A stretch of 64,000 nt of DNA from Antedon mediterranea (lineage: Eukaryota > Echinodermata > Crinoidea > Comatulida > Antedonidae). The notes below the pieces were generated by a model, which searched no databases, was not told the DNA's origin, and worked only from the letters and a program-made list of their open reading frames with translations. This document shows, piece by piece, positions 6,837-55,545 of the stretch. Within the stretch, counting starts at the first letter, position 1; every line of letters starts with the position of its first letter. Where the stretch lies: the NCBI RefSeq assembly GCF_964355755.1, contig NC_092675.1, positions 27,072,412 to 27,136,411 of the forward strand, in the 5' to 3' direction. Position numbers and translations under genes: made by a program.

Positions 6837-6860
6837 TGCTGTAAATGTTCAATTAATTGA

Positions 6861-8190: not shown

Positions 8191-8211
8191 ACATTTTTTA
8201 AATATAATCCT

Positions 8212-8971: not shown

Positions 8972-11900
8972 CAGTAGATTCACATATAATGGTGTTTATC
9001 TCCACAGCGTGTGAGCAGTCTATGTTTTCTTTTTTTGCATTATTCCAGATATATCCATTAGCCACATTGATTAGTATGCATTTTTTCTGGCGTAGGCCGT
9101 TGTCATGATGGGCATTAAATTTACTTTTAGTCCCTACGCTAAGAACATGCTCAACGTTATTTGTTAATTGATCGTATTCAGCTTTACTATTTACAACAGT
9201 GATGTTCCCACCAATCACTTCACATTCCCGTTGAGCATCAATACACGATTTTCGGTTCGTGCTCACTGTTATAAATTTATAGCAGTGATTCAACAATGAT
9301 ACCTTTGCACCTGCAAAGTATAAAGAAATTGTACAAATGAGTATATAGTGAATGTAAACATTTGAAAGAAATATCATCTGTAATGTATCACTGTTACATG
9401 ACTAATTTAAAAACTGTGTAATAATAAATATATTATGGACAATTTTGTGTTTAAATGTTTACTTTTTGTATAAGATCCTAGATAGTATTATTCAAAGTCT
9501 GATTACTATCGCTATTTTTTGCCCATTATTGTATCATTTTAAAATTTGTTTGTCTATATAAAAGTATAAAAATTAATGTGATAAGTGATTTGTTTATTTA
9601 TAACACATTTATCTAATCTTATTTTTATTTTTATTATAAAATATTTGTATCTTTTAATTGGCAATAAATTAATAAACTAGTTACTATTGTAATTATTAAT
9701 TTTACTACAACATTAATTCTACTATAAAATTGTTTTTTTTTTTTATAAAAAGCAATTTGATTTTATAATTTAAAAAAAAAACATTGTAGAATAAAATTAA
9801 TACTTAGGGATTTGGCCTACTAGTATAATTAATACTAATATCAGTTTATTCATTTATTTCTGTAATTCCATAAATAATAAAATATAATTACGGCTTGATA
9901 TGCAGATGTCTTAACCATTAGACCACTGTGGCTTTCATATTTGTAAACATTGCATTATTAGGCCTACATTCCTGACTGTTTTTATTAATAACCTTATTGC
10001 TCTTAATCAGTATCATCAATAATGGAACAAATATGTTAATGAGTATAATAAAGATGATATAAAAAAAACATTAAAAAAAAAATTATATATATAGGCCCTA
10101 TAATAATTTTGTTTATGTTTTTTGTATATCATCTGTATTATGCTAATATTAACATATTTTAAAAAGTCACACTATAATCCTATATTGTGGTGACACAATG
10201 TTTCAACCTGTATCATGCGTTTCTCCTTCCGGATCTTGGTATTTCCACTCTCCATTTTCAGGGTATATCAGGTAGCAATTTTCCACACCTGAACAATCAA
10301 AACCACTATAACACAAACGTATAACATTGTTAGTCTAGCAGCGGTAGACATGTGATGCAGTTTCAACCAATCACGTTCACGCATTTACATAGGCTATGTA
10401 ATACCTAATAATAAAATACAGATTTTAAAACGTGATCGTGATCGTATAAATAAAGCTACTATTCTCTGTTCCATTCCCGGAAACGGAAGACGGCGCCGTG
10501 AAACGAAAAACATGGTTGCTCGCTAATAATGTCCTCAGTCCTTTTCTATTATATATAACTAACATACACATGTAGTAAACTATTATTAAATATTAATAAT
10601 TACGCAAATATTTGATTTGATTTTACTTTATTCAGCTATCAGAGTTACATATATAAAACAAGCGATAATTAAGTTAAAGATAAAAGAATTTAAATTACAA
10701 TACGACATTATGTATTGTAATTTAAATTTGATTGGTTGAATTTAACATGCAATTAGACAAAAATACAATATATAAAGCGTCGTAACCAATTATTTAAAAA
10801 AAGTGAAAATAAAAACAAAGTAACGTGTAGCACAATTAAAACTAGCAAGCAAGAATTAGCCCTTAGTGTCAAAGAAACGTATTTCCATTTGGATCCTGAA
10901 TCATGCCCAACACTATTTTATAATATTGCGTTCCTGCTTAGTTGCGTTTTATTTATGTTGTTTCCGTTTTTTATTTTTTTTACTACTAATATTTCATTAA
11001 ATCTTCAAGTATGAGAGCTACTTACTTACATAATACATACAGATATAGTATAGTAATTTGCATTGGATTTTAAGTAAGGTTTTTTAATTACATCGGCTAC
11101 TATCTATTATAGGCCTATTTTAATGAAAATCTAAAAAGTCACAGAAATTATCAAATGGCGACCTTTATGAGTTAAATCAAGTTTGCTTTAAACTAACTAA
11201 CTTTGGTAGGTTTTGTAGATCACCAAATTACGTAAATAACTAGTTAAAATGTAAGCCAATTATCAAAATGGTTATGAACGAGTTAAAAAGGTTTTATGAA
11301 ACAGAAAAATTTATTTATCATCAGAATTTTGAGGACAGTATTTTTAATAGAAAATGGATAAAATTAGAAGAATTTATAAATCAAATATGAAATGGTTAGA
11401 GAGTAGAATAATTTTTATGAACCTTTATTTAATTTGTTAGATGGATATCTTTGTTGTTTTTGTTTGTTGCTTTTAATTTTAATTTTTTATTTGATTATGT
11501 TTTTCCTTTGTAATGTATTATATGATGAAATAAAAAAAAAATTAAAAAAAAATAAAAAATTACGTAATAACTAGCGTGAAAAGCCTGGCCCCTATAGAGG
11601 GCGTAAATAAAATTAATGTGTAGGCCTAAATAATAATAATACATAATCTGTACATTGTATAGATGATTATTATTTATAATTTAATAAAAATATATGTATA
11701 AGTGCATGGGATTATGTGCGGAAAATGAGTGCGACCATGAATCCATCACTACTAATAATAGTTTCTTTCCAGGATCTATTAGAGCCTTAAATATGATGTA
11801 GACTTTTTTTTGTAATGTTCTTGTTTTTTGAGTTCGTGTTGTGTCCGTTGGATATTGTGCTCCGCCAACAGAGCAAACAGAATTTCTATGTTTTTCCTAA

Positions 11901-12731
11901 AACATATGATAATAAATGATACTTTACTTTACTTTACTGTAAAGCGTGAGATCAAACTTAATGTAGACCTAATATATTGTTCTGTTATTTCGGTAAATAA
12001 TCCGTGCTGTGAATTTAACAGATTGGGCATATGAATGTCTTTTGAATTGAAGTGAATTGAACACATTTTTGAACATTTGTTTTATTTAGATATTTAAATA
12101 ATATTTATATTTATTATGGTATCAAATAATTCGATTATGTCTGATCACCATCGCTATTTACTAGGTCAGTACTTTTTTAAACATTTGTCTATTAAATTAT
12201 ACCAATTAATATTTTACTAATAACACTGTCCCAAACATTATCATAATTTTATTATAATTAATATATGAAACAATATTTTGATAATAGAATAAGATTAATA
12301 ATAAACTAAAACATTTAATATAACCATTAATAGTAATATATTTAATAATTAAAAAGATAAAAATATGTTATACGTTCCTCACTGTTTTTTTACTGATGCG
12401 CTTAATAATTATTAAGATCAATGATGGAACAATAATTATGTTAAAATAATAATAATTATAATTATAAGATCAATGTTCTACATGTCTATTGGTGCTACCA
12501 CAACAGTAAATTCCGGTGTATTTGAAGTATATAGTTAGAGGTTATAGGCCTAGGCCTATGTGATATAAAACAATAGTAGTGGTGCATACCTGTAGGCCTA
12601 AGGAATCACATAATAAAGTGTTACTTTACTTACTTTGGACATGATGGTGCAGCCTCTGTCATTTTCCATTTTAACATGCATAGGCCTATTACTATTGAAA
12701 CACATTTTAGCCATTGTATAACCCTATGCAT
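8972..12731 (-). CDS. Receptor gene H: CTLD-family, 5' exons only recognised
   Basis: Three exons are recognised on the minus strand. The signal exon is 12634-12731, starting MHRVIQWLKC with a hydrophobic core and ending SCP at a phase-2 donor GTAAGT. The small Cys exon is 10208-10305 (GFDCSG..NCYLIYPENGEW), but its donor, GTTGAA, is weak. The CTLD exon is 8972-9310 (NHCYKF, SCIDAQRECE, IGGNITVVNS, ending TIICEST). Phases run 2, 1, 1 as in the paralogs. No stalk, transmembrane or tail exon was recognised between 8971 and the LINE at 5332, apart from the doubtful exon at 6861-7012. Gene H may be 3'-truncated, may encode a secreted product, or may have diverged terminal exons. Its CTLD lacks the EPN/QPD and WND sugar-binding motifs. 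Confidence 0.6.
9378..10207. other. Gene H intron 2, AT-rich
   Basis: The intron is mostly A/T runs. At about 9890-9935 the minus strand carries a tRNA-head-like stretch (GTGGTCTAATGGTTAAGAC) that could be a SINE fragment, but neither a body nor a target duplication is visible. Nothing else is seen. Confidence 0.4.
10306..12633. other. Gene H intron 1, with short inverted repeat
   Basis: This is a long AT-rich intron. An inverted repeat at about 10688-10728 pairs TTTAAATTACAATAC with its exact inverse 3' of a short loop; it may be a decayed MITE. No further exon was recognised on either strand. Confidence 0.4.
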
Positions 12732-13961: not shown

Positions 13962-16900
13962 TTATTTGTTACGTTGAAGGCAGTCATAGGTAGAATCTTC
14001 TGGTGACGACATTGTGCTATTTATCGGTATGTCTACGTAAGTGTACATGTTGTCTGTTTGCGATGGAGTATCTGTCTTCAACTTTCCATATTCGTTTTTC
14101 TGAGCTTCTTCATTGGCTGTACTATAAACGTCATCATGTTTTTCATCAATATGTGTACCTATTGTCGACTGCATGTTGGTAGAATCATCATTAGTTCCTG
14201 TTGTGTTTTCATATGGTACGTCTTGGATATGCCCCTCCTTATCCGATTTCACTTCAGCAGCATTTATACAGTTGTAGAGTTCATCACCATTCGAAAGGCC
14301 TTCTGTATTTGCATACGATACGTCACCAATATCTGTTTTGGTACCAGGCGTCATATCCGAGGCATTTAGTGTATCGTAGGTGTCACTGAAATCTTGGTCA
14401 ATACGTTTCTTTTTATTTGGTAAGGCATACAAACCTACCGCCACGTTGTTTGGTTTTGCTGCTGGGGATGACGGTGACATGGCTGCGTCATTTGAAAGTT
14501 CTTCTGTATTTACATACGATACGTCACCAGTAACGTCTGTTTTGGTATCAGGCGTCATATCCGAGGCATTTAGTGTATCGTAGGTGTCACTGAAATCTTG
14601 GTCAATGCGTTCCTTTTTATTTGGTAAGGCATACAAACCTACCGCCACGTTGTTTGCTTTTGCTGCTGATGATGACGGTGACATAGCTGCGTACTTGCAA
14701 GGTGTTTGGGGGTTTGTTGTGTCTGTGTATCGAACAGGATCACTCAGTGTCTCTGCTGGTGCAGCTATCTCTGCATAATCATCAGAGTGTGCCGGAACGT
14801 ATATGTCATTAGAATGTGAATTGCCTATATTAATACAAGGATTGAAATATTCGACAAAAAATTAAAATCTTAGATGATCATATCTTCGTGACATAAAAAT
14901 TTGGCAAAGGAATTTGGAATAGGATTAAAATCAAATAATTGACCATTATATATGTTGAAATGAAAAAGGCATAATGCATTCGAAGGTTCGAAAGGGTTCC
15001 ATCGATTTACGGCAAGTAGCTATTTTTAGTATTAATCTCTACGTACCTTTACCAATACCATGTTTAGTGTCTGAACTCATTCGCCGCTTTTTCTTTTTAC
15101 GTCGAAAGAAAAATAAAACAATGAGTAAAATCATGATTATAACAACCAACGGTACACAAATCACAGCAACTACACCAGCACTTGACTTGTTTTCAGATAT
15201 ATTCGGTTTGGTATCAGATATATTTGGTTTGGTAGTTTGTAACGGCGCCGAGCATATTTCAGTTTTATCTATAGAGAAATTTCTAACATTTATAAAATAA
15301 TTTATAATATATTTTGGTAGGTGTACCCAAGTAATGTGTCAACATGTTTATACTCACCAGTAGATTCACAGATAATGGCGTTTACCATGTCAGTTGTTGA
15401 ACAGTCCTTGTTTTCGCTTGTTATGATATTATTGTTTTCTTCTCCATCATACACATCAACTATTACGCACCCTGTCACGAGGTTCTTCTTCTGTATGTCT
15501 GATTCTACATGAACATTAAATCTACTACTAGACCCTTGTTCAAGAAAACGTAATGCGATGTATGTTAATTGGTTGTATTCCTTAACGCTATTTATGACTT
15601 TAATATTTCCACCAACCATTTCTTCACATTCCCGTTGAGCATCAATACACGATCTGTTTTCATTGCTCACTTGTATATATGCATAGCAGTTAGGGTCGCT
15701 GTATAATGTGTATTCTGCAAACAAAAAGAACAGATAGTAGGCCTTTGGCAACAGTGAATAATAACAATATAATATTTATAACGTGAAGAATTAATTTATG
15801 AACATCCTTAGATCAAGTATTTATTTCTTATGATTTATTAAGATAAACATTTATATTTGTTACACTTTTAATTGAAATACTATTATATTTTGCAAATTTT
15901 AAATTGTTATGCTTTTTTTCTATGTTTCCACTCCCATCTGGATTTGTGTACATCCATCGTCCATTTTCAACGTAATTATATAACAATTGATTAGCTTATT
16001 TTGACATAATACTCTACATACTTGTTGTTACATGCTTGTTTTTATTCGGCACTTTATATGTCCAATTTCCATCTTCAGGGTAAAACAAGTAACATCCTGC
16101 ACCCGAACAACCAAAACCACTATAAAACACAAAATAGAGAATAAAATGATTTATGGATTAATGTATGACTCACTTATGATTACCACTGTTGTTGTTTCAC
16201 TTTCCACAGTAGGCCTATACGTCTACACTACCAAACTTTAAAAACAAAAAACAATGTGATGTGCCCATATATGCGCATGATGACGTCATATCATTACCGT
16301 ATTTGGGCACATCACACTTTTTTGTCAAACTAGTTTGATAGTGTACAGTATAGCTTTAGAATATAAAGTGAAATTAATCAAATCTTCGTTTGGTCTGTTA
16401 TGGTCTATTAGGAGGGACAACAATGTTTTCATTCATGTACGATTTCACATTATGTATCACATCACAACAATCATCAATACTGTTTATCTACAAATTAGAC
16501 AATTAGACGCATATATTTTTTAGTCAAATGAAACAGGATATTAACGATTATTCTCAGAATTGTATTGATACATTCACAGTCGGATTGCAGTGTTTTACTA
16601 CTTGACATATAATTTACAATTGTCTGTCCATATTAATAATAATAATAATAATAACAATAATAACACTAATAATAATAATAATAAGATTTTTATAGCGCAC
16701 ATACCCCTCCAGAGTGCTCAAGGCGCATATTCCCAGAATTTTATTTTTACATTCATTCATAGGCCTTCAATATTCTCAAGCTCTGTCAAAATATGCATCT
16801 ATCGCCATCACGATGTTTACTTACATTGGCAGGTGGACATAGTAGGATTGAACTAAAACTGTTATCGTAAGAGTCTAATCCTCGGAGAACAACCTTTTCA

Positions 16901-17722
16901 GGAAGTCCATGTTTCTAATGCAATCTGTAGTTTGATCGAATTGATCGTTGCATTGCCTATGTCTTGCACACAGACGTATTAACAGTTTTGGCCGACATGA
17001 ATAAAGACTTTACATATTTAGATCAAACGTTAACAGAGTTAACCCGAGTGTAAACAAAGTTTAATTACGAATGTGCGTTTTTGTTTAGTACATTAATTGA
17101 TGGCTTTTTACCATTTTTAATTTTCTTACCCATGATACCAAAAGCAATAATTTAAATTGAAGAATTCTATAATTCTTTGAAATGTAAATTGATCTTATCT
17201 GAATAATAATATTACATTACAATGTACGTAAACATTTCCTAACTTTGTTATAGGTCCACATCATCTTTTTAAATTATTACGTATACAATACATACATTTT
17301 TTGTTATGTCCAATAAAATATATACATTTTTGCAAAACAAAATACTATTAAAATATACATTTGATTATAATAAAATAGCCATATTGACCAAATAACAAGA
17401 GGATTTTTACGAAGCGAGATCTACGAAATGAACTTGTGTATTCTCATTATCTTTGATGCTGTATGTTTCCACCTCTTACGGTTTTCGTAACAATACAAAT
17501 CAATGTACGTGAATACATTCAGTTTTCTACCCTGACTATGCTTATCTTAGAAGTATAGAACAACCAGTTACAGAAAAGGCAAGTAACAATTTATTAAAAT
17601 ACTTACTCAGGACACGGTACAGTCCCTGTCGATTCCTTTAACAGGCATATTACTAAAATAAGAGACTTGTAACTCCCCACTATAAGTGAGGCATATTTCA
17701 GCCATTGTATAGGCCTGTACAT
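13962..17722 (-). CDS. Receptor gene G: CTLD type I receptor with long tyrosine-rich tail
   Basis: Five exons give an open frame of 551 residues: signal 17607-17722 (MYRPIQWLKY, ends PCP), Cys exon 16022-16119 (GFGCSGAGCYLFYPEDGNW), CTLD 15358-15714 (DPNCYAY, SCIDAQRECEE, GGNIKVINS, AIICEST), stalk/TM 15047-15268 and tail 13962-14824. All junctions keep phases 2, 1, 1, 1. The stalk is short, with two KPNIS repeats; the TM helix (VVAVICVPLVVIIMILLIVL) is followed by basic FFFRRKKKKRR, fitting a type I stop-transfer. The tail of about 287 residues has many tyrosines in motifs such as LYAL, TYDTL, SYANT, PYENT, EYGKL and MYTYV. A 68-residue unit in it is tandemly duplicated. The role is inferred as surface recognition with tyrosine-phosphorylation signalling. 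Confidence 0.75.
14280..14684 (-). repeat. Tandem 204-bp coding duplication in gene G tail
   Basis: Two adjacent units, about 14481-14684 and 14280-14480, each start MSPSS and contain NNVAVGLYALPNKK, RIDQDFSDTYDTLNASDM and a SYxNTE motif. Nucleotide similarity between them is very high. The second unit is one codon shorter, so the frame is kept. The duplication doubles the YDTL and YxN motif sets. Confidence 0.85.
15905..15990 (-). pseudogene. Degenerate second Cys-exon in gene G intron 2
   Basis: Reading minus, the stretch keeps ENGRWMYTNPDGSGN, clearly related to the ENGxWKYxDPEG end of the small Cys exon. Its 5' part is frameshifted (an NCYLIYP equivalent is split) and no good donor follows. 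It sits just downstream of the intact exon at 16022-16119, so this gene once had, or partly duplicated, a second copy of the module. Confidence 0.6.
16219..16349. repeat. MITE copy 2, GTCTACACTACCAAAC ends
   Basis: This shares GATGTGCCCATATATG, a central TGACGTCA segment and TTGGGCACATCACACTTTTT with the copies at 8212 and 62603. The right end GTTTGATAGTGTA is the inverse of the left. It lies in intron 1 of gene G. Confidence 0.75.
16632..16740 (-). mobile_element. 5'-truncated LINE tail
   Basis: On the minus strand it reads GCGCCTTGAGCACTC, GTATGTGCGCTATAAAAATC and then an interrupted TTA repeat. This matches the last ~70 bp of the LINE at 1-5332. It is a short 5'-truncated insertion of the same or a sister family within intron 1 of gene G. 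Confidence 0.8.
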
Positions 17723-19051: not shown

Positions 19052-22000
19052 CTAATGTTCCACATTGCGCTGAAGTTTGTCATAGGCATTTTCTTCCACA
19101 AGATTCAATGGAAGAGCTGTGTCTACGTAAGCGTACATTCCCTCAGATGGTACCTTCTCTTGCGTATTCAGCTTTCCATACTCGTTTTGTTCGCATACTG
19201 CGATATCTCCTTTCTTGTCACCATTATTCTTTTCACTATGATTGTTTATAGTTGAGTATGGCAATTCATATTCACCATCAGATTTTCCATTGTTACCACC
19301 AGGTTCTACGTTCATGTCTTCGTCATTCAGGGTATCGTAAACGTCGCAATCATCTTTAAAACCTTCTGTGTTTGCGTAAAGTGTGTCGTCAAATCCATTT
19401 TGGAAGTCGCCTGTATTTTTCACCTGTGCTTTTTGTTGCATGTCAGTTGTATTTAGAATATCGTAAACGTCGCCCCCATCTTGTGTGAAAACCGTTGTGT
19501 TTTCATGTGGTGTTCCATCGAAACCTTTGTTGGACTGTAGATGTTGAATGTCCGCGACATTAAGGGCAGTATAGAGAGAATGTGATTCTAAGCTTAAATA
19601 TTTACTTTCAAACCCATCTTCGATTTCTTCATTATGATTGTTCCTACTTGCACTTTGTTTTGCTGATTGCAAATTGTCATCATCTTGTCTCATTTCTCGC
19701 TCCTCTCTTGGTTTTAGTGCATCTTGCACATCACTTGTTGTTGATTGTAGTTGTGTTGTATTCCTGTGTCGTATAGAATATTTTCAACTTCGCATGGATG
19801 TTGATTATCAGATGTAGAATGCTCGTGAATTGTTGCACCATTCGAGTACGAGACATTTTCTGATAAGGATAAAATAATTACTTATTAAATTTTAAATTAA
19901 TAATATAATCAAATATAATAAAAAATATGTTGTACTTGATCTTACTGTGAATAATTAAACGTGGGTGACCAGTCATGTTGGTCACATGAAAAAGATACGT
20001 AATGGATAAAGATAATACCTTTGATTAAAGTAGCTCTACCAAAGTTATAGCTTATTTTAAATATCAGGTAAAGGAAACTGAAATCATAAAGCACTAACGC
20101 CAAATTGGCCTGCCATTCGTTGGCATCAAATAGTAAATTGTGTTTGTTAATATACCAAACTGACAGAAACACATTGATCTATTAATAGAATGAAGTACAT
20201 TAAACACTAAGGAGTTGGATAGCCGAGTGGTTAAGACACTTGACTGTCATACAGATAGACCCAGTCCACTCAGCTGTAAATGAGTACCTGGTTGAAAATA
20301 CTAGGGAGAAAAAAGGCGACGTGGAAAGGAACTGGCCACCCTACCACATAATGCCGAGGCTTAGTATTATGAGCTCCTAACAGCTCATTCCCCTACGTTC
20401 AGAGAACACGGGACTCACCCTTTACATTAAACACTATAAATTATAGTAAAATAATCAATTCAAAGCTATATAGCAATTGTCCTCAAATTAGAGTTTCTGA
20501 CAGAGATGTGAAAAGTATTTTAACTTGGTTTTTATTATCATATCCAACGTTTAGCCTGGCGTCCTGAATTTAGCTCAACTCATAAATTCCACGAAAGTTT
20601 GCTTTAGAATTCTTCTCCTATCACGAACTCATTGTACATGAATTAAAAAATTCACATACCTTGTATGTCTTGATGTTTACTTCTTCTGTATCGGATGCAA
20701 CACGTGAACGTCACAATGACTCCAACAGCAAACACGAGTACAGGAATTCCGACAGTAACAAGTAAATCAGGATCGGTATTAAGATTTTGGTTATCTCCAT
20801 CTGGATACGTAACCTCCGAATAATCAGTAGTCGGTCCAGTGACGCCAATTGGATAGATATTAGATGTTTTAGAAGGTACTTCTGACGTCGGTATCGGGTC
20901 TGATGGTGTAGTAGACATCGACAATGACATCGATGCTGACGTCATGTCTGATGAGGTAGTAGTCATCAACGATGTCAACTGCGTATTCGTTGTATCAGTT
21001 GTTGACACAGTACATATTCCAAGATCTAAATCTGCATTCATTAAAATAGAAAAGAAGTTACGCTTTGTGACGCCATGCATACATTATTCACTGGCATAGC
21101 CATAAACAATTGGAACATTAAGGTACTTTAAGTATTTGTTGAATTTTAAGATGTTAATATACCGGCCACTTTTTCTATTTCTAAAATCTAATAATCAAAT
21201 ATAATTATGTATCAAGGTACAGGTAACAGGTATCATAATTTAAAAAGATCACCTAAAAAGTATAAACATCAACCAAGTATCAAGCAAGCAAATGTAATGT
21301 CTTCTTACCAGATGACTCACAGACCATGGTGTTTATTTCTTCTGTGAAGCAACCCTTGTTTCTAATGTATATATCATTTTGAACCCCCATTCTGTTTTCC
21401 ACTACAACGTTTGCACACCCAGCATATAAGTTCTTTTCCGGATATTCTTTATCGGCATAAACATTGAAGATACTTGTTGATGGATGTCTCAGACGTTTCA
21501 GAATACGGAGAACATTATCTGTCAGCTGATCATACTCGTCTTTGCTATTTATAACAGTGATGTTGCCTCCAACTTGTTCACATTCATGTTGTGTATCAAT
21601 ACATGATTCGTTTCTGTTTGTACTTCTTATGAACATGTAACAGTTAGGATTATCATACACATCCATGTCTAAAGAAAACATATTGATATAGCTATAGTAT
21701 TTAGATAGATACAGTAGATACATAGGTGCCTGGAATACGAAAATTAGATTTGAAGGTATTGTACACAATGAGCGGGAAAGTGTGGATAGCCAATGTTTAT
21801 GAATGGTTTATCTGTTGTTGCCACCGAACAACTCACAATATGTATAGCATCAATTGTTACTTTTGCATACCTCCATTCCGTTCTCGTCCACCTGGTTCTT
21901 TGTACATCCACCTATTATGTTCAGGGTATATCAGGTAGCAATTATTACCTGAACACTCAAAACCTCTATAAAACAACAAAGGGTATTTCTTTTTACTGCT

Positions 22001-22924
22001 GCAGCAATAAGAAGAACTGTTTATTTGATGCAAAAAAACCAACAACAAATATCAGTATATAATTTAAGAATGAATCTGGGTGACTCCCATTAAGAGTAGG
22101 CCTAAGTAATTGCCGCAAACTGCAGTTTTTATTATTATTATATTTTAGATAAATGATTACATAAAAAATAAATAAACACATATGCCTAATAAATAAATAA
22201 AATTTTAGTCTCGGACGGAAAGCATATTAATATATAAGTAACTATTTAAAGCAAAAGATTTTCAACAGGTTATCCACAAATAATGTTTTCCCGCGGAGAA
22301 CTAACCCCTTGTAATGTTACTACTGGTTGACTATCCCCTAAAAAAACTTCTCATTTGGGTCAACCACACCGTACGACAATTACAAGCTAAGATAATTACC
22401 CACACGGCAACTAAATAAGTTAAATTTGATCAAGATCTGCTTAAGATGTTTGTCATGAAGTTGGTTGTCAAAAAAACTTAATTAAAAAAACTAAATTATA
22501 GGGGCGAGTGTGACTCTCTCACATTTGCACACGTCCCTAAATTGATGAAAAATTAAAGATACCGTATTGTTGCAAATATACTATTGGTTAATAGTTTCGG
22601 AGAGGGCCCTACTTACGAAACTATATGGTTTGCCCAAAATGTGTTTAGATTAGGCCTATGAATTAATTTATGTAACCGAAAATGTCATCATCATCGTTAA
22701 CTCCCGTGATTATTATAATTCATTCATTATCTTTTAGGCCTACCATTAAATAAGCCTATTAGTAGACATGCAGAGATATAAAAATACTGCAGTCTCGTCA
22801 TTAAATTTACCTACTAAATATACAGTATTATGAAATATAGACTGACTTACCGAGGACACTGTGCCCCAATGATAAGAAACTGACAAGCTAGGGCTAATAT
22901 AAACACCTTTATTTTGTAGGCCAT
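19052..22924 (-). pseudogene. Receptor gene F: CTLD type I receptor with frameshifted tail
   Basis: The five exons match the family: signal 22851-22924 (MAYKIKVFILALACQFLIIG, ends CP), Cys exon 21871-21965, CTLD 21309-21668, stalk/TM 20660-21031 and tail 19052-19859. The stalk is Ser/Thr-rich and mucin-like (TTTSSDM, SMSTTPSD); the helix LLVTVGIPVLVFAVGVIVTF is followed by CCIRYRRSK. All junctions are in phase, but inside the tail exon a net gain of 8 bases relative to gene E, near 19742-19765 just after ENILYDTGIQ, shifts the frame to an early stop. A further 225 codons remain open downstream, with DVYDIL, TLYANTEG, LPYSTI and EYGKL motifs. It may be a recent pseudogene, a short-tailed allele, an assembly error, or spliced differently from my model. 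Confidence 0.7.
20210..20422 (+). mobile_element. tRNA-derived SINE with 14-bp target duplication
   Basis: The head GGATAGCCGAGTGGTTAAG carries a good pol III A box (TAGCCGAGTGG); the B box is degenerate. The body contains CTCAGCTGTAAATGAGTACC. The 14-base sequence TACATTAAACACTA lies directly on both sides (20196-20209 and 20423-20436), a perfect target-site duplication. It sits in the intron between the TM and tail exons of gene F, opposite to the gene's direction. Confidence 0.85.
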
Positions 22925-23978: not shown

Positions 23979-26900
23979 CTAAAGTGCCATATTGCGCTGA
24001 AGCTTGTCATAGGCATTTTCTTCCACAAGATTCAATGGAAGATCTGTGTCTACGTAAGCGTACATTCCCTCTGATGGTACCTTCTCAGGCGTATTCAGCT
24101 TTCCATACTCGTTTTGTTCGCATACTGCGATATCTCCTTTCCTATCACCATTATTCTTTTCACTATGATTGTTTATAGTTGAGTACGGCAAGTCATATTC
24201 ACCATCAGATTTTCCATTGTTCCCATCAGGCTCTAAGTTCATGTTTTCGGCATTCAGGGTATCGTAAACGTCGCAATCATCTTTAAAACCTTCTGTGTTT
24301 GCGTAAAGTGTTTCGTCAAATCCATTTGGAAAGTCGCCTGCGTTTTTCTCCTGTGCTTCTTGTTGCATGTCTGTGACATTTAGAATATCGTATACTTCGC
24401 CTCCATCTTGGGTGAAAACTGGTGTGTTTACTTGTGATGTTTCAATATCTCTATTCGATTGTAAATGTTGAACGTCCCCGACATCAATGGCATTGTAGAG
24501 TTCGCATTCAACGGAAACTGAACTTCCAAAGTCATCTTCGATATCTTCATTACGATTGTGCCTACTACTTCCACTTTGTGTTGCTGATTGCAAATTGTCT
24601 GAATTATGTTTCATTTCTCGCTCGTCCCTTCGTTTTAATATATCTTTTTGTACATCACTTGTTGCTTGTAGTTGAATTCCAGTATCGTATAGAATATTTT
24701 CAACTACGCATGAATGCTGATTATCTGAATGCTCATGAATTATTGCACCATTAGAGTACGAGACACTTCCTATTGTAAAGATAAAATACTAATTTTAAAA
24801 TAAAATGTTTAATATATTGATAGATACTTTAATATTAGCACTATAACTCAAAAATAAGCCTAAACCACACGACCGGGGATACTCGCGTCATTTGAACTGG
24901 ACTGGCTTTAAATTCGGCTATGTTAGGACAACGACAACTTGTCGCGACAAAAAGAGCTCTTTAGAGACCAATTTCATTATGATGGCCAAATGTGGCGTAA
25001 TTCATGGCTATATTCTGTACAAAAAATCAGGTCGCGGGGGTATCATCATGAATTCACTAATTAGATGATGTCTGTCCAGCAGCATGGTACGGGTAAACCA
25101 ATAGTGTACTATGAAAGCAATACTTAACAACCAGCTTATTTAATAATAAACAAAGTAATTTGATAAAACATTTTTTAACAATAAATTGTGTTATAAGGTA
25201 CCACGTTGGTAGGAATACAGTATCATCTATTTGAAGTGTCTTACATAGAATATGTGATGTTCAATCTGATCAAAGTGGGATTAGTTTAAAATAAAATATG
25301 TAAAAACCCTTAATCATAAATTGCTGTAATAAATTGTCTTTAGAATAGGCAACTCGTTTGGAAATTCGATGGACTTTTGGTGTTTAAAAAATAGATAAAT
25401 TACCAGAATTCACATACCTTCATGTTTACTAAGTTGTTTGTTTTTTCTGTATCGGATGAAACAGCACATGAACGTCACAATGACTACAAAAACTACACAA
25501 AAAAGTAAAGGAATTCCGACTGGAACCAGCAAATTAGGATTAGTATTTTGATTATCACCATCTATATACGTAACCTGCGAATGATCTAAAGTAGTCTGTC
25601 GTGTGACATCAATTGGATAGGTAATATATGCTTTAGAAGGTACTTTTGACGTCGACATCGGGTCTGATGAAGAAGTAGACATCAATGATATCATCGATAC
25701 AGACGTCACTATCAGGTCTGATGGAGTAGTAGTTACCAACGATGCCAACTGCGAATTCGATGTATCAGTTGTTGACACTAGACAAATCCCACGATCTACA
25801 ACTGCATTCATTAAAATAAAAAAACGAGGTGTCCTGTCATTAAGTTCACCTCACAAAAATCTAGGACATGTTCCATAACAGTGGATAACGAAAGATCACG
25901 GCTATCATGATATTTTGTATTTTTCTCCATCTGTTTAAAATTATGGGTGAGATAATTTTGTGTCTAGAAGTATCCAGAACCATGTATGGTTCACAATACA
26001 ATGTTTTAAGACATATTAGGCCTCTTATTCAAACCCAAGAGATATGATTAAAATCAAATTAGAACACTTACGATGCAGATGGTGACAACGAAAACAATAA
26101 TGATACAAAAAGGTACGGTTTTTGTTTTTTTTTGTTTACTTTAGTATTTATAACATTGATATTTTAAAATGGCGGTTATAATCAAAAGCAATAACTTACC
26201 AGAAGACTCGCAAACAATGGTATCTACATTTTCTTCTGTGAAGCATTCCTTGTTTTCAATGTATATATCGTTCCAATTCAAAATTCCGTCATCGACTACA
26301 ATCTTTGCACATCCAACATCTACGTTATTCTTTGGAGAAACCTCGACATAGACGTTGAAAGTACTTTTTGATCCAAATGTTAGAATATGGAGAACGTTGT
26401 TTACCAGATGCTTGTACTCATCTTCGCTATTTATTACAGTCAAGTTGCCACCAATCTGTTCACATTCATCTTTGGTATCAACACACGATTCTTCTCTTTG
26501 TGTAGTTCTTATAAATGTATAGCAGCTGGAATTGCTGTACGCATTTTCATCTACAATTTAAAAAAACTCCGGTGTTGAACAAATGTGAGTAAATTTTATT
26601 AGATAGGAGGAGATGGCGGATGATAGAGATATAGATATTTATTTTTCTCCGTGTTATATTGACACTGTTGATTCGTCTATTTGTTTTTTAATATTTTTAT
26701 ATAGTTTATTTTATATCATTGTTGTTACTTTGGGAGTACGGAACCTGAACTCTTGTTATAGTGATTAGGTTCACTTTTAGGTTCCTGCCTACTCCCTTAG
26801 TTTCTGTGTTTTGTTTGTTTGTAACTGGTTTTTGGCAATAAATAATAATAATAATAATAATAAGCTATCTCTAGGCAATCACACTGTTTTGTTTATTTAA

Positions 26901-37800: not shown

Positions 37801-38278
37801 TCATACACGTTGACCTTTATATTCTTTACATAGGTATACAAATTGTATCGATACACAAACGTAATCATAAAAATGTCAGAAAGAAAATCAACCATTCATT
37901 TTACATTTGAGAATATTAAATGATAGTATGAAGACTTGTTGTTGTCGTACAGAATGTAGACCTATTTACATACATAATACTGTCAATAATGTGCCCTGAT
38001 AGAAAGCTCAATAAACAACGGTGATGTGTTCGTTCCATCGTGTCAACTAGTAGACCTAGACAATACCTATACACATAACTTTTTATTTTTTATTCGAGGG
38101 TTATTCCAAACGAATATTATCTTTTCTAAAATCAACACTATTTCGATCCGCCCATTTGTGTGGGCAAAAGCGTAGCTAATGGCATGATTGATAATACTTA
38201 CGGAGGACATGTTGCACCACTACATCTTGTTAGCATGCATATTACTGAGACACATTTCAGCCATTGTAAGCTATGCAT
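34871..38278 (-). CDS. Receptor gene C: CTLD type I receptor with short duplicated tail
   Basis: Five exons give 381 residues: signal 38202-38278 (MHSLQWLKCVSVICML, ends ATCP), Cys exon 37182-37279 (SFDCSGVNNCYLIYPENGRW), CTLD 36336-36686 (HPNCYTFIKVSN, SCIDAQRECEM, VGGNITVINS, NIICEST), stalk/TM 35683-35961 and tail 34871-35211. All phases fit. The stalk includes TTTSRLDLTT; the helix IITVSSAVIITIVVMCSLIF is followed by LRNKLKTSGRNH. The tail of about 113 residues contains two near-identical 48-residue units, each with HQNELYQLIS and STLYHD, and ends SYIELINN. The conserved sequon GGNITV may be glycosylated. Gene A is a close relative through a segmental duplication. This is one of the best-supported models in the cluster. 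Confidence 0.8.
34913..35200 (-). repeat. Tandem 144-bp coding duplication in gene C tail
   Basis: Two units of 144 bp (35057-35200 and 34913-35056) each encode DSKSLNQDTHQNELYQLISQ and DQSTLYHD. They are almost identical over most of their length, so the duplication is recent; it adds a second set of tyrosine motifs. The homologous tail exons of B and D have a single unit. Confidence 0.88.
36865..36950. repeat. 19-bp minisatellite in gene C intron 2
   Basis: About four units of CGGATTTGACGCATTTTTA type. The same position in gene A (53870-54015) holds a longer array of a related 19-bp unit. Confidence 0.8.
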
Positions 38279-39780: not shown

Positions 39781-39786
39781 TTTATT
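39781..39786 (-). promoter_or_regulatory. Possible poly(A) signal of gene B
   Basis: AATAAA on the minus strand, 76 bases beyond the gene B stop codon. Position and sequence fit, but no cleavage data are available. Confidence 0.4.
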
Positions 39787-39861
39787 CCAACCATTGATGG
39801 TTTCCTAGCCCTACTACTCCTCATACGATGATAACACATATACGATTCTAAAGTGTAGTTT

Positions 39862-42622
39862 TTAATCAATGACATCCAGGTAGTAACTATTTTGATCAAC
39901 GGGACGTAGCTCCGAGTTTTGGTACAATTGAACGGCGGCAGTGTCGTTGTACAATTGAACAGCGGCAGTATCTGGTTGTGGACATACCTGGTACAATTCG
40001 TTCTGGTATGCGTCTGTCTTTATTGATTTAGGCCTATTGTCAGCCTCAAAATCTACAAAGACAAAATATTAGTAATTATACTACTACCATTATTTACTGG
40101 TAAGTGTTATATTAATACTACTATATTCAGCAACATAACGTACCTCTACCATGCTTTCTTCCTGATGTTTTAAACTTCTTTCGTAGAAAGAGTAAGACAA
40201 CTATAATTACAACAGTAATTATAACAGATGCAGACGAAATTATAATGTAACCCCGTACATCAGTTTGCAACGAATTGGTTGGTGTATCCGTAAATAAATC
40301 AACAACACCAGTAGTGACACCAAGATTGGTTGTTGTAGTTGGTTGTGTTGTTGTTGGTTGTGTTGATGTTGGTGGCTGTGTTGTTGTTGTTGGTGGTGGT
40401 TGTGTTGTTGTTGGTGGTGGTGGTTGTGTTGGTGGTGGTGGTGGTTGTGTTGGTGGTGGTGGTGGTGGTTGTGTTGGTGGTGGTGGTGGTTGCTTTGTTG
40501 CTGGTCGTGGTTTTGGTTCCTTCGGTACCGTCTCCCGGTCTGGCGATGATGGATCTGGAATAAATAAATAAAATATTTAACGCGTAACATATAAAATCAT
40601 CAATGATAAAAGACATTATTATTATTGATCATTCAATAGTTTAATACTTACAATAATCTATCTCAAAATTATTTTATGAAAAAAAATGCAAACAACAATT
40701 GTTTAGTGGGCCTACATACCTTCATGCCCTCCAGGAATACATGGTGCAGCCCTATAAAAACAAAATATAATTAAAATGACAATTTAAAGTGATACATTTA
40801 AATATGCATAACAAGGTGGTGGTATTTGTTGAGTTGTTTAATATTGTGTTATGTGGTCAAAAGACATATTTGTGTAACCACCATGGCATAATAACGTATT
40901 TACCAATCAATATATGCTTCGGTTTCTGATAGGCTGGTCCTCAATATCATCCGATTTGTTTTAAAATCATTCTATTGGACAATACGTTTGTCAGATTAGT
41001 TTCGATTTTAGCAAGCGATTTCTAGAAATATATACGTTGTGGCTTATTCTGTTCGTTGGTTGGTTGGCTATCAATCAGTCCTCAGTCCCAAAAATCCTGT
41101 TTTTTAATTTGTTGTCGATCCTTCATGGAAAACTGAAATTATTTAGAAGCTGTGGAATAACTGCCTGCTATTTTTATAAAGGCAGAAATAGCAAATTCGA
41201 TCAATTATTATACTGTATTTTGAAATTGTAAAAGCAACAATTAATCATTAGGCCTATATGTAATTTTTTTTTTTATATTTAAAATATTGTTAATTTTTTG
41301 TCTGTCAAATATCTATTGAACCCCGTTGAAAACAAGCTGATTTATTTCTATTAGGTGAAATTATTTTGTTTTAAGTAAGATGCTTTGTTTTGATTTGATT
41401 GTTACTCGTGGTACCCGAGTCTAGGACTCTCTCATCTTCTCCTCCACCTGGACACTATTGAGCCAACTTTTCAAGTCCTACTAGTTCTTTACGCGTCGTC
41501 TGACGGCTCTGAAACATGGCATGCATATAGGGCCTACTAGGGTAATAGATGAACAAAGCTAAAGAGAGAAAATGTTCGTACTTCAACCGGATGCAGAATT
41601 ATGACTTCATAAACATGGTACCAATCGAAAAAAAGTGCGATTTATAAAGGACTACTCCTCCCTTATTCGTTGTAGTATTAAGCTGGCATGAATATAGGCC
41701 CACTACAGGGCCATGTCCTCAAACCTATAGAGCCGGATTTTTAAATTTCAAACCGGATGCAGCCATATGACGTCTCGAAGATGGTACCTTGGTACCAAAC
41801 GATTTTCGTCGTAATATAGCCGTTTGGTGTCATTTCAAATGTATTGACTTGAAGAATAAGAATATATACAGTAAAGCCTATTTATGATATTGTGACGTCA
41901 CTTCTGCTCCCGGAAATAGCAAAACAAAAACGTATTTTGGTAGCGAGGTTGTTGATGTGTATGTGACGTTACATCCGGTCTTATGACGTCATTACAACTT
42001 CTTTTGCTGTACCCCGAGTATCGCACATTCGTGTTTTTATTTTCCAATGGCCTCTTCCTATATTTTTATTATTCAATTAAGCTCAATAGAGGTAGGCTTT
42101 TTATTATTATTCAGTTATTGTTTCCTTCTCTCTAGACTACAGGAAAAAATACTAAATGGAATAAGTGCATGCATAATTTGGGCTTTAGCCTTCTTACTCT
42201 CTGATTATTGCTCATTGGAAAGTAAGTCTATTATGATTAATAACCATAAATACGTCTTCTTATTTATTATTGCACTGATCATTCTGTCTATTATTAATTG
42301 TTTGTCAAAATGGACTCAAGTCTTCATAACACTAAATAAAAACTGAATAAAAATGTTACTTAACAAAACATATACAGTACACAATCTATATGCTGTGAAC
42401 GAGGCAGTAATTCATTTCATAATGGAATTACATAAAAGTCTCAGATTAAATTTATTTGATACTGAGACAATAACAGAAATAATACAACAACAAATGATTT
42501 TATTTTAAATGTAGTTGTACTTACCCTAAGCATGGTGGTCTCTGTGTCCTAATTAACGCAAATTGGCAAACAATGATTAGGAAAAATAAAATCAACCGAG
42601 GTACAATTGTTAAGAATTTCAT
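39862..42622 (-). CDS. Receptor gene B: family member without CTLD, Pro-rich stalk
   Basis: Four exons give 243 residues: signal 42525-42622 (MKFLTIVPRLILFFLIIVCQ), a 32-base exon 40720-40751 (AAPCIPGGHE), stalk/TM 40144-40554 and tail 39862-40052. Phases 2, 1, 1 fit, so the tiny exon takes the place of the Cys exon and no CTLD exon intervenes. In the phase-consistent frame the stalk is runs of 2-6 prolines separated by TQ or TTTQ, then VTTGVVDLFTDTPTNSLQ, a helix (YIIISSASVIITVVIIVVLL) and FLRKKFKTSGRKHG, which matches gene C. The other two frames would give His/Asn- or Thr/Asn-rich peptides and do not continue into the helix. The tail has YQNELYQV, QLYNDT and QLYQNS, of the short class. It could be a mucin-like receptor that lost its lectin domain. 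Confidence 0.65.
40330..40500. repeat. GGT/TGT-rich minisatellite encoding gene B stalk
   Basis: The + strand reads repeated GGTGGTGGTTGTGTT units of varying length. On the minus strand in the gene B frame these encode Pro runs spaced by Thr-Gln. Such arrays are prone to length change, so the stalk length is probably polymorphic. Confidence 0.8.
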
Positions 42623-46432: not shown

Positions 46433-46446
46433 CTCCCCCCTCTTTC
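46433..46446 (-). promoter_or_regulatory. Polypurine tract of Gmr1-like element
   Basis: On the minus strand the bases AAAGAGGGGGGAG directly precede the 3' LTR, the expected site for plus-strand priming. Confidence 0.8.
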
Positions 46447-46659
46447 TGAGCTCAAAACTCTTTCTTGGAGTTTTGAGGGGCAAGTATACACGGACGTGGC
46501 AAAATATAACATTTTCGTCCTATAAACCTGTTTAATATATGTATATAAATTCAAACTACATTACGTGAAAACCAAATTCTCATTACAAACAAAATGTAAG
46601 AAACAAGTAACTTATAAACATTAAAACCTATTTTGTCTATTTGTAAAGTAACCCTTGCT

Positions 46660-51234: not shown

Positions 51235-51551
51235 ATTTTAAATCTGGATGAGGGTCTTGTTACTAGTTAATCGTAGTTACCGAGACGTTCACAAGTCTAC
51301 TGTTCCAAATAAATAATGTACTGTTCTTAAAACAATGTTTGTGTACTTACGATTAAACAAAACGTAGCACTGCGGCTTCCGTAAAATATCACAGTATCGT
51401 AAGTACCGCTTTCACAAAATATCAATAAAGTACAGTTGATCCTAAACAGCCACCAATCTATGGCAAAATACAGTAGATCAAACTGCTACCACAAAATATC
51501 ACAACCGTAGATAAATACACAGTTAAGTCGAACAGTAGATCGAAATAACCG

Positions 51552-51563
51552 CTGCCACCAAAT
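51552..51563 (-). promoter_or_regulatory. Primer binding site of Gmr1-like element
   Basis: Two bases inside the 5' LTR edge the minus strand reads TTTGGTGGCAGC, starting with the TGG expected to pair with a tRNA 3' CCA end. The tRNA species was not identified. Confidence 0.6.
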
Positions 51564-51565
51564 TA

Positions 51566-52013
51566 TGTCACGAACTCCTCTTACGTATGTTTCCGAGCGG
51601 TTGAAAATACTTTAGGAACTCCCTTGTGACATAAAAGTATACACACAAAATCCACAAAGTTGTAAAATAACTCAAAAACAAAGCTTTAATTTCAATCAAC
51701 TTCAACTTTTAACAATCCAGTAAGCACTTTAAACAACAGCTTCACAATGACTTTACAATATAACATCCAACCTCTAATCCAACAACCTTACAATAGTTTA
51801 CATCCCTTTATATACAAGATGCTCCTATCCTTCTAGATCATTCTTTATACTTCTCATTATTACATGATTACAGTTTCTATTAATAGCACTTCTGGAATGT
51901 TCTTGATTGTTCTTATTAATTATACATGGTTTATTAAATCAAAACATCTTATTCTAGAATGTTCATGTAAATATTATGTTACTCTATATGTTAGGGAATG
52001 GTAATTTATTACA
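51566..52013 (-). repeat. 5' LTR of Gmr1-like element
   Basis: 448-bp copy at the transcriptional start side of the element. See the partner at 45985-46432; the two ends are TGT and ACA. Confidence 0.93.
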
Positions 52014-52721: not shown

Positions 52722-55545
52722 TTACATTTTCCACAAATAAATTATAAAGTAGTTTTGCATTAAGTAAAAGCAAAGCAAATTGTTTGGTGAATTCGTAAAT
52801 GAATTCGCGTTGCTAACAGTGGTACTAACATGTGTTGTTAGATCTAATCGTGCCGTTGTTAGATCCAATCGTGGCGTTGTTAGATCCAATCGTGACGTTG
52901 TTAGATCCAATCGTGACGTTGTCATTTCTGTCGTCAATTGGCATATTCCAGGAGTTAACTCTATAATAAAGTTTAGATATTTCAATAATGAGTGATAAGT
53001 CATTCACTTCTTGCTTGGTCGGACAAGTAAACATTTAATGTAAGGTAATAATCTGACAATAGTTGGAAATTGATAATAATCATATGCATTACTACCCAAA
53101 CAAGTTAAGATTTTATAAGCCAGAGTATGATATTCTCATTAAACGCCATCAATATGTTTTATTTTAATCAATCGTGGTATGTTCAGTTTTTTTTAATAGA
53201 CAGTAGGCCTACATATATTGTTTCCTTTTCTATATTATTTTCATGGACGTAATAATAGCAGCAACAATCCATATTAAGCCTACTCGTTCAATATAATAGA
53301 TGCATTAGCTATTTTCACTTGGTCAGAAAAAGTTAACGTTGTTAGTTGGGTATGCATGTAATAATATTGTAAACACGTTGTTAATACTCACCAGTAGATT
53401 CACAGATAATGGTGTTTATCTTATCAGTTGCTGAACAGTCCATGTTTTCACTATTTACGGTATTTGAAAATGTTCCATCATACACATTGATTATTGCGCA
53501 TCCCTTGTTGAGATTTTTCTGGGGTAGTTCTGATTCTACATGGACATTAATTATACTACGAGAATAGATATGAAGAACATCTAAAACGTTATCTATTAAT
53601 TGATCGTATTCATCAACACTATTTATAACAGTAATGTTCCCGCCAATCATTTCGCATTCCCGTTGAACATCAATACACGATCTTTGTTGATTGCTCACTC
53701 TTTTAAATGTATAGCAGTTAGGGTTGCTGTATACGGTTCTAACTGCAAACAAACACAACATTACACTGACAATTAGGCCTACCGAAACATCAAAATGCAA
53801 TAAGTATCGTTAATAATTAATTTAACCGCTATTTAAACTGTTGTCTTATATTCTCAGACTCATGCCCTTAACAATTTTGGCTATTTGACTCGTTTTAACG
53901 GATTTGACTCGTTTTAACTGATTTGACTCGTTTTAATTGATTTGACTCGTTTTAACTGATTTAACTCGTGTTAACTGATTTGACTCGTGTTAACTGATTT
54001 GACTCGTTTATTCTAATTGTATTATCATCACGTATTACATGTTTGTTTCTGTAACTTTCTCTTTTGTATTGTTTCCCTTTTATGTACTGTGTTTTTAGCA
54101 ATTAAAGTACATTAGTTAATCAATAAATAAAGCTTATCACTGTAGCACCTGTATCTTGCGTTCGTCCTTCTGGATCTTGGATTTTCCATCCTCCATTTTC
54201 AGGGTATATCAGGGAGCAATTATTCACATCTGAACAATCAAAACCACTGTAAAACACAAATAAATAAAATTAATGAATAAGAGATTTAATTTCGAACTTT
54301 GCGAATGGCCCGTTGTTTCGTTTATCTTTATAAATACAAATACATAGGTCTATATAAAATCATGTTGTATCTGTTTTAGAAGAAACTCGACCAATAGAAA
54401 CATTCATAAACTTAAAAAAACAGAATCATATATCATATCAATTAATATTAAGTGCTAACTTTCAGTATTTCGTGTTTAAGTTTCAACAATCCAAAGTTAG
54501 CTTGGTCAAGACAGTGGAAATCGGCAAAGGTTCAGGCCACACTTGCTCCATGGTTCTGGTAGTAGATCAAGATCTCGGATATGGTCCAGTGTACACAAAA
54601 TGCTCACGTGCACTTTAAAGTACCTATATCTTTCGAGACGAGTATAGACCCCCTTTTATGGTTCAAACAGCCATTACTTTAAAAGTAGGCCTTCTTGTAA
54701 TCCGTAATAATCAATTTCTTGATTGAACTTACGACGATGAAGATAAATAACTAATATTACGGAAGTTATTGCAGTAACTTAGTTTTAGCGTTTTTTCCAT
54801 TATTATTATGTTTTCTTTATCTTTAAGAATTACTATTACTGTTATTATGAAAAAATGTCAACGAAGAATTCAACCATTCATTTTATGTTTGAGAATATTA
54901 AATGTTAGTATGAAGACTTGTTGTCGTACAGAATGTAGATCTAGATTTACATACATAATACTGTCAATAATGTGCCCTGATGGAAAGCTCAATAAACACG
55001 GTGATGTTCCATCATGTTAACTAGTAGGTCTATACACACCTACAAACACAATTATATATATGTTTTTATTCGACGGTTATTCTAAACGAATATTATCGTT
55101 TGTAAAATCAACACTATTTCGATCCATCTAGGCCTGTTTGTGTGCGTAAAAGAATAGCCAATGGCCAATGGCCAATGTAAATAGGTTGGGTAATCATCAG
55201 GAATAGTCCTGAACAGGGAGATGAGCGCCCCTGCCCACCGATGAGTTTCGGGATCCCTTTGACCCGGAGGGAGGGTCCCTACCAAGGGTTACAGGTCCCA
55301 GGTTTTTAGTTGTTTTTAAAATTAATTAGTGTTCCATGACCTTCTCATCAAAATTAACGTCTCTCATTGTTGTGCTATGTCAACATAATGTCAATGACGG
55401 CGAAATGTCTCCAATAATGGGTATAGCATGCAAACAAGTAATAAGTAAGTAAGTTTGATAATACTTACGGAGGACATGTTGCACCACTCCATGTTATTAA
55501 CATGCATATTACCGAGACACATTTCAGCCATTGTGAGCTGTGCAT
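52722..55545 (-). CDS. Receptor gene A: CTLD gene truncated in the stalk exon
   Basis: Four exons: signal 55469-55545 (MHSSQWLKCVSVICML, ends ATCP), Cys exon 54149-54246 (GFDCSDVNNCSLIYPENGGW, donor GTGCTA as in gene C), CTLD 53392-53742 (NPNCYTFKRVSN, SCIDVQRECEM, IGGNITVINS, TIICEST) and stalk 52960 to a stop at 52722. Total 254 residues with all phases consistent. The stalk has four SRLDLTT-type heptad repeats. Similarity to gene C stops abruptly at about 52773, in the middle of that exon; beyond it the frame reads a hydrophobic CFYLMQNYFIIYLW and stops. TM and tail exons are missing, although the gene C 3' flank reappears at 45215-45445. It may be a pseudogene, or encode a secreted or lipid-anchored decoy. 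It is a segmental duplicate of gene C. Confidence 0.6.
52840..52925 (-). repeat. 21-bp coding repeat in gene A stalk
   Basis: Four tandem units of TTGGATCTAACAACGTCACG type, encoding RLDLTT(S/P/A). Gene C has a single copy at the homologous site, so the array expanded after the two genes separated. Confidence 0.85.
53870..54015. repeat. 19-bp minisatellite in gene A intron 2
   Basis: About seven units of GGATTTGACTCGTTTTAAC type. It is orthologous in position to the shorter array in gene C (36865-36950). Confidence 0.85.

Follow-up and report, generated by a model that had tools for sequence, protein, structure and literature searches.

What are the genes that line the minus strand of this stretch of crinoid DNA, and how have their copies come to differ from one another? 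The window, by which we mean the whole stretch analysed, is 64 kb of DNA from Antedon mediterranea (Crinoidea), placed by a search of the genome (354 Mb, 18 contigs) at G000:C6:27072412-27136411. It carries tandem minus-strand genes made of exons for a signal, a cysteine module (Cys exon), a C-type lectin-like domain (CTLD), a stalk with a transmembrane segment (TM) and a tail. From their sequences, we think that these genes probably belong to a crinoid multigene family of type I membrane receptors that evolves by tandem duplication and exon exchange, and both the family and its modular evolution appear well supported. The parts of the predicted proteins are a hydrophobic signal exon, a three-Cys module, one divergent CTLD-like domain, a stalk that is usually Thr/Ser-rich, a single TM recognised by hydropathy and followed by basic residues, and a tail. 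The type I reading proposed in an earlier note on this DNA is supported: several models are intact from the signal through the TM to a tyrosine-bearing tail, and relatives built on the same plan occur in a second crinoid.

The same note had counted eight CTLD genes. By scanning the window in six frames at maximum sensitivity with a profile of the CTLD exons, we found seven: the profile recovered its own seven exons at E 2.5e-48 or better, a match by construction, and no eighth CTLD exon appeared in the window, the next best match having an E of 0.47. Without any profile, single CTLD exons matched each other in tblastn at E 9e-20 to 2e-57. The names of the seven (g53, g36, g30, g26, g21, g15 and g9) give the place of the CTLD exon in kb. 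Four are complete (g15, g26, g30 and g36), g9 runs past the window, g21 has a frameshifted tail and g53 is cut short; the remaining gene, g40, has no detectable CTLD exon. The extent given for the cluster, 8972..55545, was exact, its two ends being the donor of the last CTLD exon and the first start codon. NCBI models agree with 3/8 genes, and the other five had no model among the returned proteins. Our g9 model (178 amino acids) is letter for letter the start of NCBI P0002, P0001 equals g26 save for a stalk acceptor 6 nt upstream that adds two residues, and P0005 is an N-truncated g36.

The exon phases 2-1-1-1, described before as fixed, were indeed found in all five copies with five exons in the window (g15, g21, g26, g30 and g36, the last with its stalk acceptor set at 35961), and g9 (2-1 within the window) and g53 (2-1-1) are consistent as far as they extend. 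In 7/7 copies the signal exon closes with ...CP and a phase 2 donor, and the donors of the Cys, CTLD and stalk/TM exons are all phase 1. The CTLD and stalk/TM exons are therefore symmetric (phase 1-1), so that their swap or loss leaves the frame intact, and a gene lacking the CTLD exon, as g40, stays in frame. Of the single exon plan with intact splice sites that had been claimed, the plan and the phases are shared, while g21 is frameshifted, g53 is broken and g9 leaves the window.

Heads, membrane exons and tails show very different degrees of likeness between the same two copies. Between the neighbours L012 and L014, the CTLD exons agree at 290/345 nt (84%), the TM exons at 275/276 (99.6%) and the following intron and tail at 913/947 (96%). 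In another copy, L013, the TM exon matches those of L012 and L014 at about 92%; its tail agrees with that of g9 at 142/144 nt (98.6%) and its CTLD with that of g9 at 236/312 (76%). At the protein level, P0003 and P0012, whose tails differ in class, share 68% of the CTLD and 92% of the TM, and P0003 and g9 share 95% of the tail and 54% of the CTLD. Also, the synonymous divergence (dS) of g21 and g26 is 0.73 in the CTLD and 0.65 in the Cys exon, compared to 0.31 in the TM and 0.26 in the tail. Related heads on different tails, as expected of paired receptors whose tails would signal, thus occur within Antedon (P0003/P0012; L013).

Then, we built a tree of 23 CTLDs, with duplicates and one fragment omitted. 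The two species required 2 changes on this tree, compared to 7.9 expected on shuffles, and grouping the Antedon CTLDs as one clade was not rejected (p 0.475). Forcing into one clade the eight CTLDs that bear the long tails termed class A below (g21 included) was rejected by the approximately unbiased (AU) test (log-likelihood difference 61.7, p-AU 8e-6), the group having been named from its tails after the CTLD tree had been seen. We regard the DNA contrasts between Antedon copies as stronger evidence for exchange than the AU test.

To what family could these genes belong? Two profile searches, covering 5.8 billion proteins, together gave 18 proteins, 7 from Antedon and 11 from Anneissia japonica, all named uncharacterised (10 matches in the first search; in the second, 17 at E<=10 among 5760 scored candidates, P0001 not among them). 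The Anneissia relatives carry the same protein layout as the Antedon models. No relative from other animals was found in either profile search; as the protein search reaches solely relatives with shared short words, this restriction to crinoids is a property of the search and no proof. The g36 CTLD exon alone, used as a protein-search query, gave no homologues, and a literature search on the family and the organism gave no paper describing such a receptor family in crinoids. The earlier statement that the family cannot be linked to a named one agrees with these results, the relatives being solely uncharacterised crinoid proteins.

In the genome, where our copy counts are lower bounds, the g36 CTLD exon matched 19 places, 14 close (E about 1e-26 or better) and 5 distant. 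Seven of the close copies lie in the window, four adjoin its left end with the same orientation, and three are elsewhere, at C6:26.85 Mb (with a frame break), C6:28.57 Mb and C1:30.09 Mb. The whole cluster thus spans about 91 kb, from about C6:27,036,952 to 27,127,956, with 11 CTLD genes plus g40. The five distant copies (L023-L027) are all on C6, at 27-35% identity.

We then examined the head by searching PDB with three profiles at E<=1, built from 20 family CTLDs (A7), from seven rows (A1) and from 12 full-length rows (A4). With A7, 35/37 matches were CTLD proteins by name, led by CD93 (3.8e-4 and 1.1e-3), PLA2R (1.1e-3) and BDCA-2 (6.4e-3), and nearly all of them fell within positions 3-60, that is in the first half of the domain, with two Ly49C chains extending to 86. 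With A1, 16/19 matches were CTLD proteins. The second half of the CTLD is more variable, with a mean entropy of 1.69 compared to 1.22 bits. The WIGL-type core motif, searched as W[IL]G, was found in 0/20 CTLDs; this motif is not universal among CTLDs. EPN or QPD occurred in 0/20 CTLDs checked and WND in 1/20 (g26), so the classical sugar-binding set (EPN or QPD plus WND) is complete in none of the 20; the absence of sugar-binding motifs reported before is correct for EPN/QPD and has to be amended for the literal WND of g26. In the same genome there were 154 matches to Pfam Lectin_C and, among the matches listed, none fell in the window, which sets the family apart from the ordinary C-type lectins of the animal. 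As a bridge to ordinary CTLDs, the distant copies did not serve: among L023, L024, L025 and L027, only L023 gave a Lectin_C match, a weak one at E 0.02 and below cut-off. The Cys module had no match in PDB below E 1.3. Pfam TMEM154 (8/12 members, best 1.1e-7) and other TM-type models were read as noise from the TM segment. Of the profile and structure searches proposed for both exons, the profile search with the CTLD found PDB CTLDs and that with the Cys exon no match below E 1.3. We conclude that the domain is probably CTLD-like, with a kinship supported mainly for its first half and a fold that is unproven; the CTLD identity given in the earlier note stands as profile homology to PDB CTLDs, chiefly in that half, with Pfam below its cut-off.

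To characterize the tails, we used a set of 20 (excluding g21, g53, P0015-P0017 and duplicates of window genes), which splits into 8 long class A and 12 short tails, the latter defined as everything not class A. Long tails hold 12-18 tyrosines, and in class A alignments Tyr is the best-conserved residue (mean 0.79 over 16 columns; next Asn, 0.66). Their end reads NEYxKL...MYxYVxx...YDxLQRN, except in P0009 (NDSGKL) and P0012 (MYSFV). A model of the four Antedon class A tails scored the four Anneissia ones at 43-90 bits, with shuffles at 7.4 or less, so the class A tails of the two species are homologous and form a single class. The short tails of Antedon are a related set and bear chiefly NELYQL and LYHDTVV. 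Compared to 500 shuffles per tail, YxxL/I/V was found 79 times vs 30.3 expected and YxxP 20 times vs 7.8 (0/500 shuffles reaching either), YxN 26 times vs 16.7 (8/500) and ITAM (immunoreceptor tyrosine-based activation motif) 3 times vs 0.4 (4/500), counts that are non-independent because the tails are related, so that shuffles overstate independence; NPxY was found 0 times vs 0.6 and PxxP 5 vs 5.3. The many YxxL/I and YxN motifs noticed before are therefore real as counts. The motif LPYSTI, read earlier as an ITIM (immunoreceptor tyrosine-based inhibitory motif), is present in the g26 tail and, past the frameshift, in g21, and it is missing from the other seven class A tails; it is real in g26 and unconserved, with strict ITIMs about twofold over shuffles. 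ITIM-type signalling is thus not specifically supported, whereas general YxxL/I/V and YxxP motifs are clearly enriched.

Two tails contain internal duplications, at 34935-35201 in g36 (123 bp, 96.7%) and at about 14369-14707 in g15; tails seem to grow through repeats of tyrosine-bearing segments. Separately, a weak class A tail match (L030, C6:27051777-27051938, E 0.016) lies just before the short tail of L013; it may be chance, an exchange fossil or an alternative tail exon.

Several results weigh against a family of CTLD receptors with exchanged exons and signalling tails. The TM-to-tail intron of g21 and g26 is unalignable though the flanking exons align, so a simple conversion tract is insufficient as a full account. 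The CTLD tree is weakly resolved, with 3/20 inner branches well supported, and the AU result, besides the late naming of its tail group, could equally reflect per-lineage replacement of tails without head exchange. Ratios of nonsynonymous to synonymous divergence (dN/dS, NG86) in the CTLD, defined in 17/21 pairs, range from 0.16 to 1.11 with a median of 0.47 and exceed 1 in 1/17; for the Cys exon they exceed 1 in 8/21 pairs, but on only about 18 synonymous sites. Such values suggest fast evolution under weak constraint and make no case for positive selection, so that comparing dN/dS across copies, as the earlier note had proposed, confirmed fast divergence and left positive selection unsupported. 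For the head, the A4 profile gave CTLD proteins in 6/14 PDB matches, the rest hitting stalk, TM or tail; 0/7 window exons reached the 22.6-bit cut-off of Pfam Lectin_C (best 16.4, one exon), and among 12 family members it was sub-threshold in 2/12 (best E 0.057). The AlphaFold model of full P0002 (9 rows) was poor, with a mean pLDDT (predicted local distance difference test) of 40.4, and is no evidence of a fold. Among the tails, where the non-independence of the counts also tells, strict ITIMs were only about twofold over expectation (14 vs 7.0; 9/500 shuffles). Moreover, a model of six Antedon short tails gave the six from Anneissia 1.5-10.9 bits, and shuffles reached 9.0; the reverse model, made of Anneissia short tails, lifted g40 alone clearly (15.3 bits, shuffles to 7.8). 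Short tails as a single class across both species are not supported by these cross-species scores.

How could these data be explained otherwise? One could see ordinary tandem duplicates of uniform divergence, the mosaic being noise or assembly error, given that short exons yield noisy estimates, that tandem repeats are hard to assemble and that g21, g53 and L022 are damaged. This seems very unlikely to us, as the large contrasts adjoin in the DNA (a CTLD at 84% beside a TM at 99.6%) and L013 combines the TM of one neighbour with the tail of another. A head made of an unrelated Cys-rich fold that resembles the first half of a CTLD is improbable too: 35/37 PDB profile matches were CTLD proteins, C, GGN and ICE are spaced in CTLD order, and even the low-confidence AlphaFold model (pLDDT 40) is ordered strand-helix-strand-helix-strands, although the sub-threshold Pfam scores, PDB matches mostly within positions 3-60, the lack of W[IL]G in 20/20 CTLDs and the unusable AlphaFold model would suit such a fold.

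The remaining alternatives concern what the receptors do. They could be endocytic or trafficking receptors, in which YxxL/I/V would be a clathrin-adaptor sorting signal (YxxPhi) serving ligand uptake, as in CD302 or mannose-receptor types. In favour, YxxL/I/V is the commonest of the enriched motifs (79 vs 30.3), the short Antedon tails bear chiefly NELYQL and LYHDTVV, and the PDB profile matches include CD302 and chains of mannose-receptor type; however, the 12-18 tyrosines of each long tail, the conservation of Tyr across 16 columns and the enrichment of YxxP (20 vs 7.8), which an AP-2 signal leaves unexplained, make this unlikely. We consider it rather unlikely that a fast-evolving family specific to the lineage serves recognition outside immunity (of gametes, at larval settlement, in regeneration or in cell adhesion): lineage restriction and species-wise clustering of heads suit reproductive or adhesive families equally, but related heads that bear different tails are seen more typically in immune-type receptor families. 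An immune role would come close to an even chance while falling somewhat short of it, and an NK-type or allorecognition function, brought up in the earlier note, is inference.

Coming back to exon exchange in a family of type I receptors, we propose that ectopic recombination or gene conversion between tandem copies would swap or drop the symmetric exons. The CTLD-like head might bind a ligand, most likely a protein or some surface ligand, without the canonical calcium/sugar site; on clustering, Src-type kinases could phosphorylate tail tyrosines, and the phosphotyrosines would then recruit SH2 proteins. Such partners would be of Crk/Nck type for YxxP, of Grb2 type for YxN and of SHP/Syk type for YxxL/I/V. 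Class A could act as a multi-docking tail, and short tails could give a simpler output or, equally possibly, an endocytic signal. The likeliest use would be recognition by coelomocytes or other surface cells, with varied heads coupled to either tail. Going further, we tentatively suggest a paired-receptor system made by crinoids, in which fast-diverging heads from one pool are recombined at phase-1 introns onto long tyrosine-rich or short tails. Heads of related specificity would then feed different signals, and siblings lacking the CTLD, such as g40, would serve as decoys or co-receptors. If true, it would be an echinoderm counterpart of vertebrate natural killer (NK) receptor clusters that evolved independently. 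Crinoids are usually regarded as sister to all other living echinoderms, and a lineage-specific cluster with independently moving heads and tails would show paired recognition arising outside vertebrates. The cluster also offers a concrete locus for studying crinoid immunity or self-recognition.

Among known systems, vertebrate CD302 (DCL-1), matched in PDB by our profile (2nan, E 0.022), is likewise type I with a single non-classical CTLD near the N-terminus, a TM and a tail; it is not known to have a three-Cys module or a long multi-tyrosine tail, or to form a cluster of exchanging copies. The CD93/thrombomodulin group gave the best PDB match (8a59, E 3.8e-4, first half of the CTLD). CD93-type proteins bear additional EGF and sushi-like domains, whereas none were seen in the crinoid exons. 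Ly49C and CD69 matched weakly (E 0.1-0.4). Vertebrate NK-type CTLD receptors (Ly49, CD69, NKG2) also lack a calcium/sugar site, have clustered genes and carry tyrosine motifs, and they are type II with a C-terminal CTLD; in contrast, the crinoid proteins differ from this group V by a signal exon, an N-terminal CTLD and a TM afterwards. Ascidian blood cells carry CD94-like CTLD receptors, one of them without sugar-binding capability, as described in PMC5465252, whose passages on them mention no tail exchange. Receptors of CD94 type, as in these tunicates (Botryllus, Ciona), are type II; we take them as analogues and not as members of the family.

The exons of the complete copies, all on the minus strand as are those of the other genes, lie as follows. 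In g36, the signal exon is at 38202..38278, the Cys exon at 37182..37276, the CTLD exon at 36336..36686, the stalk/TM exon at 35683..35961 and the short tail, with its internal 123-bp duplication (96.7%), at 34871..35211. The corresponding exons of g30 are at 33704..33777, 32817..32911, 30513..30866, 29681..29893 and, for its short tail, 29329..29501. For g26, they are at 28370..28440, 27068..27162, 26200..26550 (the CTLD exon with the literal WND), 25418..25801 (starting at 25801 in NCBI P0001 and at 25795 in our own model) and, for the long class A tail that contains LPYSTI, 23979..24769. Finally, g15 has its signal exon at 17607..17722, Cys exon at 16022..16119, CTLD exon at 15358..15714, stalk/TM exon at 15047..15268 and class A tail, with the internal repeat, at 13962..14824. 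Beside the g15 Cys exon, a partial second Cys-exon-like stretch was seen at 15831-15995 (E 2.6e-4).

Three copies are damaged or incomplete in the window. The g9 signal, Cys and CTLD exons are at 12634..12731, 10208..10305 (with a weak donor, GTTGAA, that is the same in NCBI P0002) and 8972..9310; its TM exon (C6:27071133-27071408) and tail (C6:27066728-27066871), placed as in P0002, are about 1.0 and 5.5 kb past the window edge, and its CTLD-TM intron of about 10 kb contains a LINE-type element with open reading frame (ORF) matches to endonuclease and reverse transcriptase (RT). In g21, the signal (22851..22924), Cys (21871..21965), CTLD (21309..21668) and stalk/TM (20660..21031, acceptor 21031 or 21025) exons are followed by a tail exon that runs from 19859 to an early stop (19714..19859), because an 8-nt length difference compared to g26 shifts the frame. 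The remainder, read in its own frame to about 19055, has no stop and a dN/dS of 0.57 compared to g26, and hence the break looks recent. The third, g53, has exons for signal (55469..55545), Cys (54149..54246), CTLD (53392..53742) and stalk (52773..52960); most of its aligned blocks, introns too, are 80-90% identical to g36, of which it is a near copy, and no TM exon was found past 52773, where the similarity to g36 ends within the stalk exon. The sequence after this point was suspected by eye to be a LINE end, which Pfam did not confirm.

The sibling without a CTLD, g40, spans 39862-42622 with four exons in one open frame of 243 amino acids (phases 2-1-1): a signal exon at 42525..42622, a short second exon of 32 nt (AAPCIPGGHE) at 40720..40751 with phases as in Cys exons, a Pro/Thr-rich stalk and TM exon at 40144..40554 and a short tail exon at 39862..40052. 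No hidden CTLD exon was detected by a profile scan of g40 in six frames. At its TM end, g40 shares 83% identity with g36 over 106 bp, and the tail is related as well (E 4e-7). That the TM and tail of g40 are the lost 3' end of g53 is not supported, since g40 has its own in-frame signal exon, since g53, a near-duplicate of g36, breaks at 52773, and since a stretch like that downstream of the g36 tail persists at 45249-45443, beyond a long terminal repeat (LTR) element (75% over 212 bp).

This element, at 45985-52013, is a young LTR retrotransposon with LTRs of 448 bp that are 99.55% identical, flanks that suggest a 4-bp target-site copy (ACAC), and protease, integrase and then RT/RNase H in one ORF. 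Its gag part matches the Pfam SCAN domain (E 4.5e-23). According to PMC3424704, a Gmr1-like gypsy Gag gave rise to the SCAN domain, and SCAN genes form a family confined to vertebrates. So strong a match in a crinoid element deserves attention. At the other end of the window, a non-LTR retrotransposon on the plus strand (448-4742), with endonuclease and reverse transcriptase matches and several broken frames, lies within the g9 CTLD-TM intron. A stretch of about 3.3 kb (5596-8920) is 98% identical to C6:27067410-27070706 just past the window, and is a recent segmental duplication flanking the retrotransposon.

The palindrome TAGGCCTA occurs in 32 copies in the window vs 0.37 expected from shuffles; 30/32 lie outside cluster exons, and the two stretches of mobile elements (1-5300 and 45985-52013) are free of it. 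That TAGGCCTA is an echinoderm trait was not borne out by a literature search. In the next gene upstream of the cluster (58841-61981, minus strand), one exon is fn3-like (E 0.013, below cut-off) and carries a GNWTSP stretch, and another shows CxW spacing; it may be a class I cytokine-receptor-type gene.

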